Shown here piece after piece: positions 3,489 through 49,406 of a DNA stretch of 64,000 nucleotides. The stretch lies in NCBI RefSeq assembly GCF_037860835.1, contig NZ_JBBEOG010000002.1, positions 496,001-560,000 on the forward strand, in the 5' to 3' direction. Source of the DNA: Aquipuribacter nitratireducens. GTDB lineage: Bacteria > Actinomycetota > Actinomycetes > Actinomycetales > JBBAYJ01. The first letter of the stretch is position 1. Each line of letters begins with the position of its first letter. The notes below the pieces were generated by a model, which did not search any database, was not told where the DNA came from, and saw nothing but the letters and a program-made list of their open reading frames with translations. The translations under genes and the position numbers were made by a program.

Positions 3489-3560
3489 TGGGGTATGGGG
3501 TAATTGGCAGCCCGGCTGATTCTGGTTCAGCTAGTCTAGGTTCGAGTCCTGGTACCCCAG
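3489..3560 (+). tRNA. tRNA-Gln (anticodon CTG)
   Basis: A cloverleaf of 72 bases. The acceptor TGGGGTA (3489-3495) pairs fully with TACCCCA (3553-3559), and the discriminator is G at 3560. The anticodon stem GCTGA/TCAGC (3515-3519/3527-3531) holds the loop TTCTGGT with CTG at 3522-3524. The T arm contains GGTTCGAGTCC. No CCA is encoded. Confidence 0.95.
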
Positions 3561-3630: not shown

Positions 3631-3703
3631 GGCCCCGTCGTCTAGCGGCCTAGGACGCCGCCCTCTCAAGGCGGTAGCGCCGGTTCGAATCCGGTCGGGG
3701 CTA
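3631..3703 (+). tRNA. tRNA-Glu (anticodon CTC)
   Basis: A cloverleaf of 73 bases. The acceptor GGCCCCG (3631-3637) pairs with CGGGGCT (3696-3702), including a G1-U72 wobble that I recall from actinobacterial tRNA-Glu; the discriminator is A at 3703. The anticodon stem CCGCC/GGCGG holds the loop CTCTCAA with CTC at 3665-3667. The T loop is TTCGAAT. No CCA is encoded. Confidence 0.95.
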
Positions 3704-7670: not shown

Positions 7671-8873
7671 GTGAACAGGAGCGACCTCGTCGCCGCGATC
7701 GCCGAGCGGATCGGCGACAAGAAGAAGGCCAAGCAGGCCGTCGACGCATTCGTCGAGTCCGTCACGGATGCCGTCGCCCGCGGCGAGAAGGTCGCCGTCA
7801 GCGGCCTCGGCACCTTCGAGCGCGCCTACCGGGCGGCGTCCGAGGGCGAGCCCGTCGACGTGGCGGGCGTCCAGGTCCCGCGCTTCGAGCCGGCCAAGGG
7901 CTTCCGCGTCCTCGTCGACGAGGCCCGCCACCTGGGCGAGCAGGCCATCGCCGTGGCCGCTGCCGCCGTGGCTGAGGGCAAGAAGGGCGGCAAGGTCTCC
8001 AAGATCGCGAAGAAGGCGCAGGTCAAGGCCGAGAAGCAGTACGGCGCGAAGGCGCGTCCGAAGCCGTCGACGCAGCCCGTGCCCGTCGTCGCCACCGAGG
8101 CCTCGCCCGCGCGGAAGGCGGCCGAGGCCCGCGACGGCGGAGCGCCCGGAGGTGGCCCGGTCGCGACCGGCGACACCACGCCCGCGAAGAAGGCGACGGC
8201 GAAGAGGACGACGGCGACGAAGGCCACGCCCGCGAAGAAGGCGACGGCGAAGAAGACGACGGCGAAGAAGACGACGGCCACGAAGGCCACGCCCGCGAAG
8301 AAGTCGACCACGAAGAAGACGACGGCGACGAAGGCCACGCCCGCGAAGAAGACGACGGCGACGAAGGCCGCGCCCGCGAAGAGGTCGACCACGAAGAAGT
8401 CGACAGCGAAGAAGACGACCGCGAGGACGACCGCGGCGGCCGCTCCTGCGACGGCGACCGGGACGGCGCGGGCCACGGAGGCGGCGACCACCGACTCCGC
8501 GACCGCGACGCGCCCGCCCGTCCCGTCCTCGTCGGGTGGGAGCCCGGCGACGTCCTCGACCGCGACGCGCAGCTCGGCGAAGCGCACGCCCACGACACGC
8601 ACCCCCGCGAAGCAGACGGCCGCGAAGCAGACGGCCGCGAAGCAGACGGCCGCGAAGCAGACGGCCGCGAAGCGGACCACCGCCACGCGCACTCCTGCGA
8701 AGCGGACCCCGGCGACACGGACCGGCGCCCCGGCCCGTCGCCCGGCCGTCCGCCCGGCGGCGCAGCCGTCCTCGAGCCCGGCGGCCGCGACCGGTGAGGA
8801 CGACACCCCGTCGTCCACCCCGTCGTCCACCCCGTCGTCCACCCCGACCGCCGGCACCGGCGGGGGCGCCTGA
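7671..8873 (+). CDS. HU-family nucleoid protein with lysine-rich H1-like tail
   Basis: A 400-residue DNA-binding protein. Residues 1-95 are a complete HU domain (MNRSDLVAAIAERIGDKKKA, GEKVAVSGLGTFERAYRAA, the arm VQVPRFEPAKGFRV). The remaining 300 residues are low complexity, built mainly of A-T-K-K/P-A-K-K repeats like the C-terminus of histone H1, then AKQTA repeats and a Pro/Ser end. GTG start with AGGAGG 6-11 bases upstream. Actinobacterial two-domain HUs (mycobacterial HupB, Streptomyces HupS) share this design but are usually about 210-220 residues, so this tail is long. A possible -10 TAGCGT lies at 7627-7632. Confidence 0.93.
   Translation: MNRSDLVAAIAERIGDKKKAKQAVDAFVESVTDAVARGEKVAVSGLGTFERAYRAASEGEPVDVAGVQVPRFEPAKGFRVLVDEARHLGEQAIAVAAAAVAEGKKGGKVSKIAKKAQVKAEKQYGAKARPKPSTQPVPVVATEASPARKAAEARDGGAPGGGPVATGDTTPAKKATAKRTTATKATPAKKATAKKTTAKKTTATKATPAKKSTTKKTTATKATPAKKTTATKAAPAKRSTTKKSTAKKTTARTTAAAAPATATGTARATEAATTDSATATRPPVPSSSGGSPATSSTATRSSAKRTPTTRTPAKQTAAKQTAAKQTAAKQTAAKRTTATRTPAKRTPATRTGAPARRPAVRPAAQPSSSPAAATGEDDTPSSTPSSTPSSTPTAGTGGGA
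8607..8666 (+). repeat. 4 x 15-bp perfect tandem repeat within the HU tail
   Basis: Four identical units of GCGAAGCAGACGGCC encode AKQTA repeats in the lysine-rich tail. Identical DNA, not only identical amino acids, points to recent slippage-type expansion. Three copies of a 12-bp unit (CGTCGTCCACCC) lie further on near 8811-8846. The count may vary between strains. Confidence 0.9.
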
Positions 8874-26880: not shown

Positions 26881-27519
26881 GTGGCTCTCGACGGTGACGG
26901 TCCCGTGCGCGTCATGGTCATCGACGACCACGAGGTGGTGCGTCGTGGTGTCGTCGACGTGTGCGACGCCGACGACCGACTCGACGTCGTCGCCGAGGCC
27001 GCGAGCGTGGCCGAGGGGCTGCGGCGGGCGGCGGCCGTGCGTCCGGACGTCGCCCTCGTGGACCTGCACCTGCCCGACGGCACCGGGATCGACCTCATGC
27101 GCGGGCTCCACGACGTGACCCCCCACACGCGCTACGTCGTGCTGACGAGCTTCGACGACGACGACTACGCCGAGGCGGCGCTCGAGGTGGGGGCGGCGGC
27201 CTTCGTGCTCAAGACCGTCCGCGGCAGCCAGATCGCCGACACCGTCCACGCCGTCGCGGGCGGCCGTGTGCTCCTCGACGACCGCGCGCTCCAACGCCGA
27301 CGCGAGTCGCACGAGGACCCCCTCGCCGTGCTGACACCGACCGAGCGGCTCGTCCTCGAGTGCATCGGCGACGGGCTCAGCAACCGCGAGAGCGGTGAGC
27401 GGCTCGGCGTGAGCGAGAAGACCGTGAAGAACCACGTGACCGCGGTCATGGCGAAGCTCGGCTTCAAGCGGCGCACGCAGGCCGCGGCGTGGGTGGCCGC
27501 CCACCGCAGACGCGACTGA
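26881..27519 (+). CDS. LuxR/NarL-type response regulator, DevR(DosR)-like
   Basis: A 212-residue regulator. The receiver reads VMVIDDHEVVRRGVVDV, with phospho-acceptor Asp in ALVDLHLPDGTGIDL and switch residues Thr (VVLTSFDDDD) and Lys (FVLKTVRG). The C-terminal LuxR helix-turn-helix is DPLAVLTPTERLVLECIGDG and SEKTVKNHVTAVMAKLGFKRRTQ. DHEVVRRG, LPDG-GI, EKTVKN and AKLG-RRTQAA are, from memory, hallmarks of the DosR/DevR hypoxia regulator of mycobacteria. The gene converges with a DosS-like kinase 66 bases away, so they look like partners though not one operon. GTG start with GGAGGAGG upstream. Confidence 0.88.
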   Translation: MALDGDGPVRVMVIDDHEVVRRGVVDVCDADDRLDVVAEAASVAEGLRRAAAVRPDVALVDLHLPDGTGIDLMRGLHDVTPHTRYVVLTSFDDDDYAEAALEVGAAAFVLKTVRGSQIADTVHAVAGGRVLLDDRALQRRRESHEDPLAVLTPTERLVLECIGDGLSNRESGERLGVSEKTVKNHVTAVMAKLGFKRRTQAAAWVAAHRRRD

Positions 27520-45549: not shown

Positions 45550-46218
45550 CTACCCCCGGCCGAGGCCCGCGTCCCGCGCCCGCACGATGGCCTCGGCCCG
45601 GTCGGCGACGTGGAGCTTGGCGAAGACGTTCGACACGCAGTTGCGCACGGTCTTCGGGCTGAGGAACAGCAGCTCGGCGATCTGGGGGTTCGAGCGGCCG
45701 GCGGCGACGAGGTCGAGCACCTCCCGCTCCCGCGCCGTGAGGTGCGGGAACGGGTCGCCGGTCCCGGCGTCCGGCGCCGGGGCGGCGCGCCCGGCGAAGT
45801 ACTCCGCGATCCGCACCGCGAGCGACGCGCCGAACACCGCCCCGCCCGCCGCGACGGTGCGCAGGGCCTGCACGACCTCGTCGGCGTCGGCGCCCTTGAG
45901 CAGGTAGCCGCGGGCCCCGGCCCGCAGGGCCGCGAAGACGGTGTCGTCGTCCTCGGACATCGTGAGGACGACCACCCCGGTCGACGGCGACTCCGCCGTC
46001 AGCCGCCGGGTCGCCTCCACGCCGTCGAGGACGGGCATCTGGACGTCCATGACGACGACGTCGGGTGCGAGCTCCCGGGCCCGGTCGAGGGCTGCGGCGC
46101 CGTCCGCGGCCGTCCCGACGACGACCACCTCCTCGACGGTCGCGAGGAGGGCGGCCAGGCCGTCCCGGTAGACGGGGTGGTCGTCGACGACGAGGACCCG
46201 CAGCCGCGTGTCGGTCAC
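45550..46218 (-). CDS. LuxR/NarL-type response regulator
   Basis: A 222-residue regulator: receiver RVLVVDDHPVYRDGLAALLA, phospho-acceptor Asp in VVVMDVQMPVLDGVEA, VVVLTMSEDDDT (Thr) and GYLLKGADADEV (Lys); HTH LTAREREVLDLVAAGRSNPQIAELLFLSPKTVRNCVSNV-type, given here as LTAREREVLDLVAAGRS and SPKTVRNCVSNVFAKL. GTG 46218 overlaps the stop of the upstream kinase (GTGA), so the two form a cognate pair. Targets are unknown; the palindrome and repeats upstream of the kinase gene are candidate sites. Confidence 0.92.
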   Translation of the reverse strand: MTDTRLRVLVVDDHPVYRDGLAALLATVEEVVVVGTAADGAAALDRARELAPDVVVMDVQMPVLDGVEATRRLTAESPSTGVVVLTMSEDDDTVFAALRAGARGYLLKGADADEVVQALRTVAAGGAVFGASLAVRIAEYFAGRAAPAPDAGTGDPFPHLTAREREVLDLVAAGRSNPQIAELLFLSPKTVRNCVSNVFAKLHVADRAEAIVRARDAGLGRG

Positions 46219-48425
46219 GAGGGCACCTCGCGGGTCTCGCGGGACAGGTTGGCCTCGGCAGCGGGCTCCGGGCCCGGCTCGGGGCTCGTGGTGGGGGCAG
46301 GGCCGGTGGGGAGGACGACGTGCACCGTGGTGCCGCCGGAGGACGGGCACGCGACGTGCGCGGTGCCGCCGAGCTCCGCCGCCCGCTCCCGCAGCGACAG
46401 CAGCCCGACGCCGGCGGGCGCGTCGGGCCGGATGCCCCGCCCGTCGTCGACCACGAGGACGTGGAGGGCGTCCGGCAGGCGGCGGAGCGTGACGCGCACG
46501 TGCTGCGCGTCGGCGTGCCGGGCCACGTTGACGAGCGCCTCGCCCGCGACCCGCAGGGCCGCGACCTCGACGGCCGCGGGCAGCCCGGGCAGCTCCTCCG
46601 GTGCCCCCTCGACGACGACTGCGGCCTCGGGACCGCCGGGCGCCGCCGAGAGGCGGCTCGCCTGCTGCCGCAGCGCCCCCACGAGACCGACGTCGTCGAG
46701 CGCGGGCGGGCGCAGGTCGTGCACGAGTCGCCGGACCTCCGCGAGACCGCCGGAGACCTCGTCCCGCGCCTCCCGCAGGGTCGCGTCCGCCTCCTGGGTG
46801 CGCCCGGCCGCCGCGAGCCGCCGTGCGGTGTCGACCCGCAGGACGACGGCGCCGAGCAGCGGTCCCAGACCGTCGTGGAGGTCTCGGCGCAGCCGGCGGC
46901 GCTCCTCCTCGCGCGCGCCCACGAGCAGCTCGCGGTGCCGCTGCAGCTGCCCGGCGAGCAGCGCGGCGCGCGCTGCGGCCGCGCCCTGCCGGACGACGTC
47001 CGCGAGCAGCCGCGCGTCCCGGCTGCCCGGCCTCGGCCCGCCGGTGCCGGCCGGGAGCAGGAGCCGTCCGATGGGCTCGCCGCGGTACACCAGCGGCTGC
47101 TCGGCGAGCGCGCCCGGCGCCCGCTCCCCGTGGTGGGCCTCGACCGACGTGCCGTCGGGGGCGTCGAGGACGACCCCGACGTACGGCAGGCGGAAGGCGT
47201 CCGCGACCGCGGCCACGAGTGCCCGCAGCTCCTGGCCCACGTCCGGGGCCGCCTCGAGGCGCTCCGCCAGCCGCGACACCACCCGGTACGGGTCCTCCCG
47301 CTCGCCGAGGACGAGGCGCCGGGCGAGCCGGAACACCCGGTCGCGCAGCGGCAGGTAGGCCGCGGCGACGACGGCGAGCGCGAGCACCGCCGCCTCCCGC
47401 TCGCCCAGCCCGCCGGACAGCAGCGCCCCGGCGGCGGTGAGGACCCCGAGGTCGACGGCGACGAGCGCCACGGCGAGGGCGGCGTAGACGACGGTGCCCG
47501 ACAGCAGCGCGTCGATGTCGAGCACCCGCGGCCGGACGATGCCGGCCGCGACCGCGAGGGCGCACACCCCGACGGCGACCACGAGCGCAGCGGACGTGAG
47601 GGCGTCGGGCAGGACGAGCGTCGCGAGCATGACGAGCGTCGCGACCAGACCCGCCCACAGCAGCCACCGCAGCGTGCGGCGCTCCTCCGCGCCGCCCCGC
47701 CGGTAGCGCTGCACGAGCGCCGCGAACGGCACGACGAGGCTGAGGGGCACCGCCGCGTACGCGACGCCGAGCGCCGCCGACCACACCGGCTCCGGCACCC
47801 CGACGAGGCTCGTGAGGTCGCGGTCGACCGGGCCGAGGGCCGTCGCGCCGATCCCCTCCGCGCCGCCCGCGGCGCGGTCGGCGACCGCCGCCGGGACGAC
47901 GAGCAGCAGCAGCGGCAGCAGGCACGTCGCGGCGAGGCTCGCGAGCGCGCCCACCCGCCACGCCCGTCCTGCCGGCAGCCTGCCGTCGGGGAACAGGAGC
48001 AGCAGGAGCGGCAGCGTCAGCAGGAGCCACGCGCCGAGCCGCTGGAACACCCAGAACGCCGGCGCCGCCCCGGGCAGCGGGTCGCCACCGGCGAGGACCG
48101 GCTCGACGGCCCGCACGAGCCACGCCGCGGCGAGGGCGTCCCCGGCCCAGTGCACGCCGGCGACGACGAGCACCCACCCAAGCAGGTGCCGGGGCGCCCG
48201 GCGCAGGACGAGCAGCCCGGCGACGGCCAGGAGGCTGCCGGACACGCCGGCGGGCCACGCGGGGCCGTCGGTGAGCGCGGCGGCGAGCGCGGGGTCGTTG
48301 CCGGCGTCGAGACCGGCGCTCGCGACCGTGGCGGCGACGGCGGCGGCCACCCCTGGGGACGGCAGCCACCGCGAGAGGGTTCCCGCCCGGGGTCGTGGGC
48401 CCGCGGGGCGATCGTCGTCCGGCAC
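46215..48425 (-). CDS. membrane sensor histidine kinase
   Basis: A 736-residue kinase with about nine or ten hydrophobic segments in residues 20-400 (including LLTLPLLLLLFPDGRLPAGR and AALAVALVAVDLGVLTA), a GAF-like region (about 430-510), the HisKA_3 H-box REEERRRLRRDLHDGLGP (His near 519), and an ATPase with VLVVDDGRGIRPDAPAGVG and LLSLRERAAELGGTA. The multi-pass sensor suggests detection within or at the membrane. GTG 48425 follows CACACT by 6 bases with no ribosome site. Coupled to the response regulator by GTGA. Confidence 0.9.
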   Translation of the reverse strand: MPDDDRPAGPRPRAGTLSRWLPSPGVAAAVAATVASAGLDAGNDPALAAALTDGPAWPAGVSGSLLAVAGLLVLRRAPRHLLGWVLVVAGVHWAGDALAAAWLVRAVEPVLAGGDPLPGAAPAFWVFQRLGAWLLLTLPLLLLLFPDGRLPAGRAWRVGALASLAATCLLPLLLLVVPAAVADRAAGGAEGIGATALGPVDRDLTSLVGVPEPVWSAALGVAYAAVPLSLVVPFAALVQRYRRGGAEERRTLRWLLWAGLVATLVMLATLVLPDALTSAALVVAVGVCALAVAAGIVRPRVLDIDALLSGTVVYAALAVALVAVDLGVLTAAGALLSGGLGEREAAVLALAVVAAAYLPLRDRVFRLARRLVLGEREDPYRVVSRLAERLEAAPDVGQELRALVAAVADAFRLPYVGVVLDAPDGTSVEAHHGERAPGALAEQPLVYRGEPIGRLLLPAGTGGPRPGSRDARLLADVVRQGAAAARAALLAGQLQRHRELLVGAREEERRRLRRDLHDGLGPLLGAVVLRVDTARRLAAAGRTQEADATLREARDEVSGGLAEVRRLVHDLRPPALDDVGLVGALRQQASRLSAAPGGPEAAVVVEGAPEELPGLPAAVEVAALRVAGEALVNVARHADAQHVRVTLRRLPDALHVLVVDDGRGIRPDAPAGVGLLSLRERAAELGGTAHVACPSSGGTTVHVVLPTGPAPTTSPEPGPEPAAEANLSRETREVPS

Positions 48426-48461
48426 GCAGGCAGTGTGACGGCTGGGGGCTCCGCGGGGGCA

Positions 48462-48515
48462 GGGACACGTGTCCCTGGTCGTGTCCCGACCCGTGTCCCG
48501 GCTCGTGTCCCGGGC
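48462..48515. promoter_or_regulatory. 14-bp palindrome plus four 12-bp tandem half-site repeats
   Basis: GGGACACGTGTCCC (48462-48475) is a perfect palindrome. Its right half starts a tandem array CGTGTCCC-N4 with exact 12-base period at 48468, 48480, 48492 and 48504. The array lies about 40-90 bases before the kinase GTG and about 130-185 before the membrane-protein GTG. Regularly spaced half-sites on near-helical phase look like a regulator-binding array. Confidence 0.6.
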
Positions 48516-48647
48516 GCGCCGCCTCGAGGTCGTGACACCGGACGGGACCTGCGCCCCTGCCGGCCCGGGACGCGGCCACGGCACCGTCCTGCTCGTCGGC
48601 ACCGACCGGTGCCCGCGACGGACCCACCACACCCCAGGAGGCTCCCC

Positions 48648-49406
48648 GTGAGCAGCACGACCGGCTTCGTCACCACCGTCACGTCGACGGGCACGTCGAC
48701 GGGCACGTCGACGGGCACCGCCCGCGACGACGTCCGCACGACCGCCCCGGCACCCGTCACCCCGCGGCAGGCCCGCCGCGCCGAGCGGGCCCGCGTCACG
48801 GCGGAGCGGGCTGCGGCGCTGCCGCCGGTCCCGCTGCGGCACGCCCGGCTCACCGGCGCGGCCGTCGCCGTCGGGTCGCTGTCGTTCGCCGGCAGCTTCT
48901 TCCTCGTCGGCGCGACGCCGGACACGTCCCTCGGCGTCACGGTCGGCGACCTCATGGCCCTGCCGTTCCAGCTGTCGCTCGTCGCGCTCGTCGTCCACCA
49001 GCTGCGGACGCGCGCCGCGGGCCTCGGTCGCGGGACGGTCGGCTTCATGCGGGTCGAGCTCGGGTTCCTCGCCCTCGCGATGGCGTGGACGGTGCTCCAC
49101 GGCCTCGTCCCGTCCTTCCGCGACGACTTCTGGCTGGCGGTCCTCGACGTGTTCTGGCCCGTGTCCATGCTCGGCATGGCCGTCATCGGCATCAAGATCG
49201 CTGTCGCCGGCCGCTGGCGCGGCACCGCCCGGGCGTGGCCGGCCGTCGCCGAGAGCTGGGCGCCGGTGTGCATCCCGGTGTTCGGCGCCACCGGCGGCGC
49301 ACCGGTCGCCGACCTCGTCGCCGGGGGTCACGTCCTCGTCGGCTACGTCGTCCTCGGTCTCGTCCTGCTCCGCGCCCCCCACCTCACGGGCGCCCGGGAC
49401 GCCTGA
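48648..49406 (+). CDS. membrane protein of unknown function (five predicted helices)
   Basis: 252 residues. A Thr/Ser/Gly-rich N-terminus (TSTG repeats, then RQARRAERARVTAERAA) precedes about five membrane segments, including AAVAVGSLSFAGSFFLVGA, DLMALPFQLSLVALVVHQL, GFLALAMAWTVLHGLVP, FWPVSMLGMAVIGIKIAVAG and HVLVGYVVLGLVLL. I do not recognise the family. GTG 48648 has AGGAGG 7-12 bases upstream. Its promoter region is shared with the divergent kinase gene and contains the palindrome/repeat array, so it may be a target or partner of that two-component system. A strong terminator follows. Confidence 0.8.
   Translation: MSSTTGFVTTVTSTGTSTGTSTGTARDDVRTTAPAPVTPRQARRAERARVTAERAAALPPVPLRHARLTGAAVAVGSLSFAGSFFLVGATPDTSLGVTVGDLMALPFQLSLVALVVHQLRTRAAGLGRGTVGFMRVELGFLALAMAWTVLHGLVPSFRDDFWLAVLDVFWPVSMLGMAVIGIKIAVAGRWRGTARAWPAVAESWAPVCIPVFGATGGAPVADLVAGGHVLVGYVVLGLVLLRAPHLTGARDA
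48681..48716 (+). repeat. 3 x 12-bp perfect tandem repeat at the 5' end of the membrane-protein gene
   Basis: Three identical units of ACGTCGACGGGC encode TSTG repeats at residues 12-23. Copy number could vary. Confidence 0.85.

Follow-up and report, generated by a model that had tools for sequence, protein, structure and literature searches.

What purpose is served by a perfect palindrome that leads into a row of identical half-sites, in the space between a sensor histidine kinase gene and a divergently oriented membrane-protein gene? In the window (the whole stretch of DNA analysed here, 64,000 nucleotides in length), the arrangement comprises the following features.

48460–48477, minus strand: proposed main operator, an 18-bp perfect palindrome; its core GGGAC-N4-GTCCC (48462–48475) lies at −50 to −37 of the kinase start
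48476–48511, minus strand: three further GGGACACG half-sites in 12-bp steps (on the plus strand, CGTGTCCC starting at 48480, 48492 and 48504)
48432–48437, minus strand: −10-like hexamer CACACT, located 24 nt past the operator and separated from the kinase start by 6 nt
46215–48425, minus strand: sensor histidine kinase (Pfam HisKA_3, HATPase_c), GTG start, probably leaderless
45550–46218, minus strand: LuxR/NarL-type response regulator (Pfam Response_reg, GerE) with recognition helix SPKTVRN; its start overlaps the kinase stop
48544–48557, plus strand: predicted second operator GGGACCTGCGCCCC, a weak match (p = 0.04)
48582–48587, plus strand: predicted −10-like hexamer CACCGT, 24 nt after the second operator; predicted transcription start at ∼48594
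48648–49406, plus strand: divergent membrane-protein gene of no named family; homologs lie divergently upstream in 56 of 95 loci

We consider it quite likely, for the explanation taken as a whole, that the palindrome serves as an autoregulatory activator operator of the kinase–regulator operon, with a mirror-image partner at the divergent gene and the array as a set of auxiliary sites.

The palindrome and its array

The first-pass annotation had recorded a perfect palindrome GGGACACGTGTCCC running into four copies of a half-site in exact 12-base steps, with the palindrome at about −50 to −37 from the kinase start codon, and each of these statements held. GGGACACGTGTCCC is found at 48462–48475 and extends to the 18-bp perfect palindrome CAGGGACACGTGTCCCTG at 48460–48477; the octamer CGTGTCCC starts at 48468, 48480, 48492 and 48504, the step being exactly 12 bases; and the kinase begins with GTG at 48425–48423. 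Chance was rejected as the origin of the array, for the octamer alone occurs in the window at chance level (10 matches compared to 9.8 expected) but the exact pair CGTGTCCC-N4-CGTGTCCC is found at this place only in the 3.83-Mb genome, where it forms three overlapping pairs. The genome scan proposed earlier has thus confined the exact 12-bp pair to the present locus. The pair recurs elsewhere in the genome at 2 places with 1 mismatch and at 25 with 2, and the exact 14-mer palindrome GGGACACGTGTCCC has a single occurrence.

A 12-bp repeat per se is not unusual here, given that Tandem Repeats Finder reports 93 rows in the window, many with a period of 9, 12 or 15. Within the array, the four octamers agree in 48 of 48 pairwise base comparisons and the spacers in 9 of 24. 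Recent slippage would have left the spacers alike and old neutral slippage would have changed half-sites and spacers both; we therefore infer constraint on the half-sites. The identity of the half-sites beside differing spacers is directly seen in the sequence, as are, in the sections below, where operator and hexamer lie, how they are spaced and conserved, and the partial covariation of helix and site. Among the genomes compared, the array in its exact form is present only in this one; its second arms are poor and its steps are 12 bp only. It appears as a lineage-specific and probably selected extension of a conserved operator.

Other repeats and elements of the window are observations in their own right. 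A perfect 12-bp tandem repeat of 3.2 copies (48680–48718) lies in the start of the divergent membrane gene and codes for a TSTG-like repeat. Tandem repeats with a period of 15 bp occupy 8175–8424 and 8577–8707, the first tract being GCGAAGAAGACGACG-like, and probably represent a lysine-rich coding repeat. An RNA element was considered and rejected, the Rfam matches in the window being two tRNAs only; two adjacent tRNA genes are located at 3489–3560 and 3631–3703.

Conservation of operator position and promoter geometry

Kinase homologs at E ≤ 1e-60 were obtained from 21 of 396 whole genomes of the order, the window's own included (22 rows), and 80 further loci were kept from named genomes, among them Geodermatophilus, Blastococcus, Actinoplanes, Nonomuraea, Microbispora, Nocardioides, Actinomycetospora and Chloroflexi bins. 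The final set comprises 95 loci; seven rows (L134, L148, L153 and L155 of the 80; L018, L071 and L073 of the 22) were left out because their alignment starts deep within the kinase. L065 and L098 duplicate one locus, which is without palindrome, and the set includes near-duplicate upstream regions (L126 and L152 differ at 6 of 84 positions, two more pairs at 12 of 84).

The core GGGAC-N4-GTCCC occurs 49–51 nt before an in-frame start in 17 of the 95 loci without mismatch, in 34 with at most one mismatch and in 55 with at most two. With at most one mismatch, distance 50 accounts for 22 loci, compared to a mean of 1.3 per distance between 14 and 150. Since the 55 loci were selected by a palindrome 49–51 nt before some in-frame start, that is, with the start chosen jointly with the palindrome, the spacing of the hexamer is the test that matters more. 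A hexamer xAnnnT follows the palindrome at exactly 24 nt in 41 of the 55; of the other spacings from 16 to 33, those of 23, 25 and 26 nt are found in 6, 4 and 5 loci, respectively, and the remainder in two or fewer. The hexamer is separated from the start codon by 6 nt in 42 loci and by 7 nt in 9; 4 loci have no hexamer. The best candidate for a ribosome site agrees with the expected word at 5 of 6 positions in 3 loci and at 3 or 4 in all others. We take this pattern to reflect an apparently leaderless kinase promoter, with the operator placed over its −35 region. If transcription begins at the start codon, the operator is centred at −43.5, close to the −42 expected of a class II activator operator. 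The centre and the fixed hexamer distance together fit activation better than repression, and the activator position assigned in the first-pass annotation is supported accordingly by the relatives. Also borne out is the claim that the locus encodes a LuxR-type regulator: directly after the kinase stands a protein with Response_reg and GerE domains, such that a GerE-domain regulator (Pfam) lies within the operon it is proposed to control, and a regulator match just after the kinase is present in 93 of the 95 homologous loci.

The 45 named loci among the 55 with palindrome represent 17 genera. The operator is conserved in position in many actinobacteria, and probably has an autoregulatory role. 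Under a matrix that excludes the genus of the window, the window operator reaches 26.3 and the runner-up in the 64 kb 13.6. Scanning one strand over a few hundred bases upstream of each homolog yields a score of at least 12 in 43 of the 95; among 25 control loci whose kinases are unrelated, scanned on both strands (∼186,000 positions), 4 contain such a hit at some place. In the sister genome (L016), the palindrome GGGACAGCGGTCCC is kept together with one GGGACACG half-site 12 bp upstream, and there is no exact array; its matrix score of 1.7 is low because the spacer is 23 nt. By our rule the palindrome is missing in 40 of the 95 loci, including 29 with a KTVRN regulator. Sixteen palindrome-less loci form a group, mostly having YVSNKTVRN-like helices, with the kinase situated behind another gene where inspected. 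In five of these (L075, L108, L114, L115, L125) a motif GGGACA...GGCCC was observed 930–1040 bp before the kinase match, and in those paralogous systems it is perhaps the operator of the first gene.

Conservation of the array in relatives, on which the first-pass annotation had staked its reading, is found in part. A same-orientation pair of half-sites 12 bp apart is present in 18 of the 55 loci, but the upstream half-sites of the relatives are mostly in the other orientation than those of the array. Across the 55 regions, same-orientation distances peak at 12 (26 pairs), 22 (25) and 23 (24), followed by 47, 35 and 14, and 36 such pairs fall at 11–13 bp, compared to a shuffle mean of 0.3.

The divergent gene and the spacing of two proposed operators

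Gene and palindrome largely occur together: across the 95 loci, both are present in 51, neither in 35, the gene only in 5 (L058, L059, L060, L077, L124) and the palindrome only in 4. Near-variant palindromes exist in four of the gene-only loci, and none is found at the start in L124. The divergent protein has no match in Pfam or NCBIfam, and its fold model (pLDDT 93) has no match in the PDB at E ≤ 0.001; a likeness to rhodopsin was rejected, as a TM of up to ∼0.4 with an rmsd of ∼14 is not meaningful.

To the earlier reading of the locus we add a putative mirror-image operator–promoter that would serve the divergent gene; its signal is weak in the window and clearer in relatives. Several other places in the window score like its second operator. 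The second operator of L016, GGGACGCCGGACCC, is accompanied by CACCGT at a spacing of 24 nt. Among the 20 loci whose second palindrome has at most one mismatch, the hexamer is found at 24 nt in 9 and at 25 nt in 2, with none elsewhere from 16 to 33, and the kinase-side matrix places the second site above shuffles in 27 of the 55 loci, 23 of them with hexamer. Just past the point where transcription of the divergent gene is predicted to begin, an inverted repeat GGCACC-GACC-GGTGCC was observed (48598–48613); similar hairpins exist in several relatives, and with a mean fold z-score of −0.97 over 33 loci they constitute weak evidence.

With the 28 of 55 loci having no significant second site, and the 4 of 27 having no hexamer, excluded, the distance between the two operators is available for 23 loci: 23, 25, 35, 35, 45–47 (14 loci), 58, 59, 82, 82 and 105. 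A period fit to these yields R = 0.94 at 11.7 bp, 0.91 at 12 bp and 0.63 at 10.5 bp. The six cluster values, which are our own averages, yield R = 0.997, a value that none of 5000 random sets attained; at 10.5 bp they yield 0.21. The period of 11.7 bp is suggestive and not proof, because the loci are related. Of the near-helical phasing ascribed to the array in the first-pass annotation, the 12-bp step stands, and the term near-helical is loose: relative to a 10.5-bp turn, the array is off by 1.5 bp per step, and the relatives follow ∼11.7 bp. The window distance of 82 is 46 + 36, and the outermost array unit, if it is counted as a site, lies at a distance of 46 bp from the proposed operator of the divergent gene; three added 12-bp units are therefore the best reading of the array.

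A further-reaching proposal, which we regard as speculative and rather doubtful, is that of an intergenic scaffold in which a row of regulators, with approximately one subunit per 11.7 bp, joins the two divergent promoters and the protein lattice sets the register. The row would then evolve in length by whole subunit steps only, and the operators would therefore move apart by whole-unit insertions like the array. If true, a spacing of 11.7 bp in place of 10.5 bp would imply that a protein lattice, and not plain helix phase, determines the register.

Recognition helix and site

The helix SPKTVRN has K, R and N at the positions of DosR K179, K182 and N183, as counted from match ranges of equal length. 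In the excerpt of PMC5999986, these three are core DNA-binding residues of DosR, with the K182R variant binding like wild type and K182Q showing reduced binding; according to a title cited in PMC12919924, binding is impaired when DevR carries K182G or the Dev box carries C8G. By our count, box base C8 is the C of GGGAC. Among the 55 loci with palindrome, 52 have a regulator helix reading KT[VI]R; one of the others is without regulator match and two have other helices. L068 combines the helix KTIAN with the site GGGAACACATTCCC, and L074 the helix KTVQN with an imperfect site, GGGAACCGGGCCCC. KTVSN in L206, L208 and L207 (the last being the same place as L072) is accompanied upstream of the kinase by GGGAA-N3-TTCCC, whose arms are separated by one base less than those of the GGGAC sites, with TATCGT or TATCTT 23–24 nt on, as counted by eye. 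No clear site was found in L210 (KTVAN). With R replaced by S, A or Q, the site is mostly GGGAA, in few cases, one of them unclear.

The pattern suggests a partial covariation of helix and site across few systems, and the palindrome is probably bound by the kinase's own partner regulator. The DosR-type recognition residues and the partial covariation thus lend support to the binder named in the first-pass annotation, the LuxR-type regulator of the locus. If the explanation we favour is right, they also suggest natural covariation between K182 and box base C8, a residue–base pair already described for DosR; such covariation would be of use in predicting the target sites of related regulators from sequence. 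A role in a defence system was rejected for the regulator, its matches to PADLOC models being weak, the best of them (E 5.1e-08) to part of a protein.

Proposed mechanism and alternatives

The explanation we favour may be formulated as follows. The cognate LuxR/NarL-type regulator, probably phosphorylated, would occupy the palindrome, which overlaps the −35 region, in the form of a head-to-head dimer; the bound dimer would activate the leaderless kinase–regulator operon in a positive feedback loop. A second operator–promoter of the same geometry would act in the opposite direction on the divergent membrane gene, and half-sites in ∼12-bp steps between the operators would provide auxiliary contacts for a cooperative rise in occupancy, with three extra 12-bp units between the two operators in this lineage. 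We infer regulator binding, phosphorylation, activation over repression, cooperativity and the use of the second operator in the window from sequence features. A simple row of head-to-head dimers is not compatible with same-direction half-sites every 12 bp.

Accepting the palindrome as a real operator, one could still regard the 12-bp array as a functionless neutral tandem duplication. Short tandem repeats are indeed common in the window (93 rows), many of period 12, with a perfect one just 170 bp away at 48680–48718, and the sister genome lacks the exact array, carrying a single good copy 12 bp upstream. Neutral decay, however, should affect half-sites and spacers both, and the half-sites are identical at 48 of 48 comparisons with the spacers at 9 of 24; moreover, 18 of 55 relatives have same-orientation half-sites at 12 bp, and pairs at 11–13 bp number 36 against 0.3 in shuffles. 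We hold a neutral array to be unlikely. Quite unlikely, in our estimation, is that another LuxR-type regulator (e.g., a DosR-like one) binds the palindrome, or that the cognate regulator represses. The genome does contain a second KTVRN regulator (L176) and one KTVKN (L189), among 20 helices read of 48 matches, as well as 36 GGGAC-N4-GTCCC sites, several of them 49–51 nt before a start. Yet the palindrome accompanies the kinase–regulator pair and the divergent gene across 17 genera, and in the few variant systems a change of helix goes with a change of site; as regards repression, a centre at −43.5 with a fixed hexamer distance suits activation better.

A coding origin of the repeats would require the kinase to extend upstream, the array then encoding a 4-residue repeat RDTx. 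The kinase frame is open through the array to 49496, and 12 bp correspond to 4 codons, RDTSRDTGRDTTRDT, but the GC-rich DNA here has many long open frames. The start-codon geometry (of 55 loci, 42 have a hexamer–start gap of 6 nt and 9 one of 7 nt), the in-frame stops of relatives (between operator and start in 5 of 55, within 100 nt upstream in 11 of 55) and operator distances that are mostly not multiples of 3 (23, 25, 35, 46, 47, 58, 59, 82) led us to set aside a coding repeat as highly improbable.

Relation to known systems and significance

No paper on this two-component system was found in the partial collection searched. The comparisons with related regulators extend as far as the excerpts of the papers cited. 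The DosR/DevR box of Mycobacterium tuberculosis has the 20-bp consensus TTSGGGACTWWAGTCCCSAA (PMC2275270) and shares with the window the GGGAC-N4-GTCCC core, the regulators having in common K, K/R and N at the contacts. Also common to both are close-packed sites, the proximal one overlapping −35 (PMC3029386), and two sites for divergent promoters. Unlike the DosR/DevR box, the window palindrome CAGGGACACGTGTCCCTG differs from TTSGGGACTWWAGTCCCSAA in the central ACGT and in bases outside GGGAC/GTCCC, and the window operator stands before the two-component operon it is proposed to control, next to a divergent membrane gene and with a half-site row in 12-bp steps. In the excerpts consulted, the DosR/DevR sensor DevS has GAF domains; no GAF domain was found in the window kinase, for which Pfam gives HisKA_3 and HATPase_c models only (E ≤ 0.001). 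Membership in the DosR regulon was rejected, and the system is not placed under DosR, because the locus has neither the full 20-bp consensus nor a GAF sensor.

OsdR of Streptomyces coelicolor, with the sites AGGGCCGATCGGCCCT, offers the likeness of a 16-bp palindrome of a DevR-like regulator upstream of that regulator's own gene; its half-sites are GGGCC, whereas those of the window are GGGAC (PMC5069765). The proposed ladder of sites resembles that of BvgA, a NarL-type regulator that forms head-to-head dimers in a row, with about one monomer per turn and the proximal site at −35; BvgA differs by a 22-bp dimer spacing and weak inverted half-sites (PMC7250471); the window, by comparison, has identical same-direction half-sites every 12 bp, and the spacing period is 11.7 bp. 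The same direction of half-sites about one turn apart is seen with PolR of Microlunatus phosphovorus, a DevR-like actinobacterial regulator (sites GTTCACnnnnnGTTCaC), which is distinguished by another half-site, an 11-bp step and, in the sites of the excerpt, no palindrome (PMC6754071).

If right, the explanation we favour would define the operator–promoter code for a two-component system present in many actinobacteria, along with a divergent membrane partner, and the operator distances, which range from 23 to 105 bp by whole units, would constitute a natural series for studying response-regulator cooperation along DNA. Regarding the regulon, six genome sites besides the operator lie 49–51 nt before a start. 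Four of these read GGGACC-NN-GGTCCC (L162, L172, L046 and L050 of the window's own genome, at position 1501 of each locus), and the genes behind them are two Pyridox_ox_2, one sodium/hydrogen exchanger and one without Pfam match; they perhaps form a separate, DosR-like regulon. As four of the six candidates look like such another set, no further target of the window regulator is established among the 36 genome sites with GGGAC-N4-GTCCC. The window also encodes a second LuxR-type response regulator (26899–27486), whose helix KTVKN is like that of DosR.
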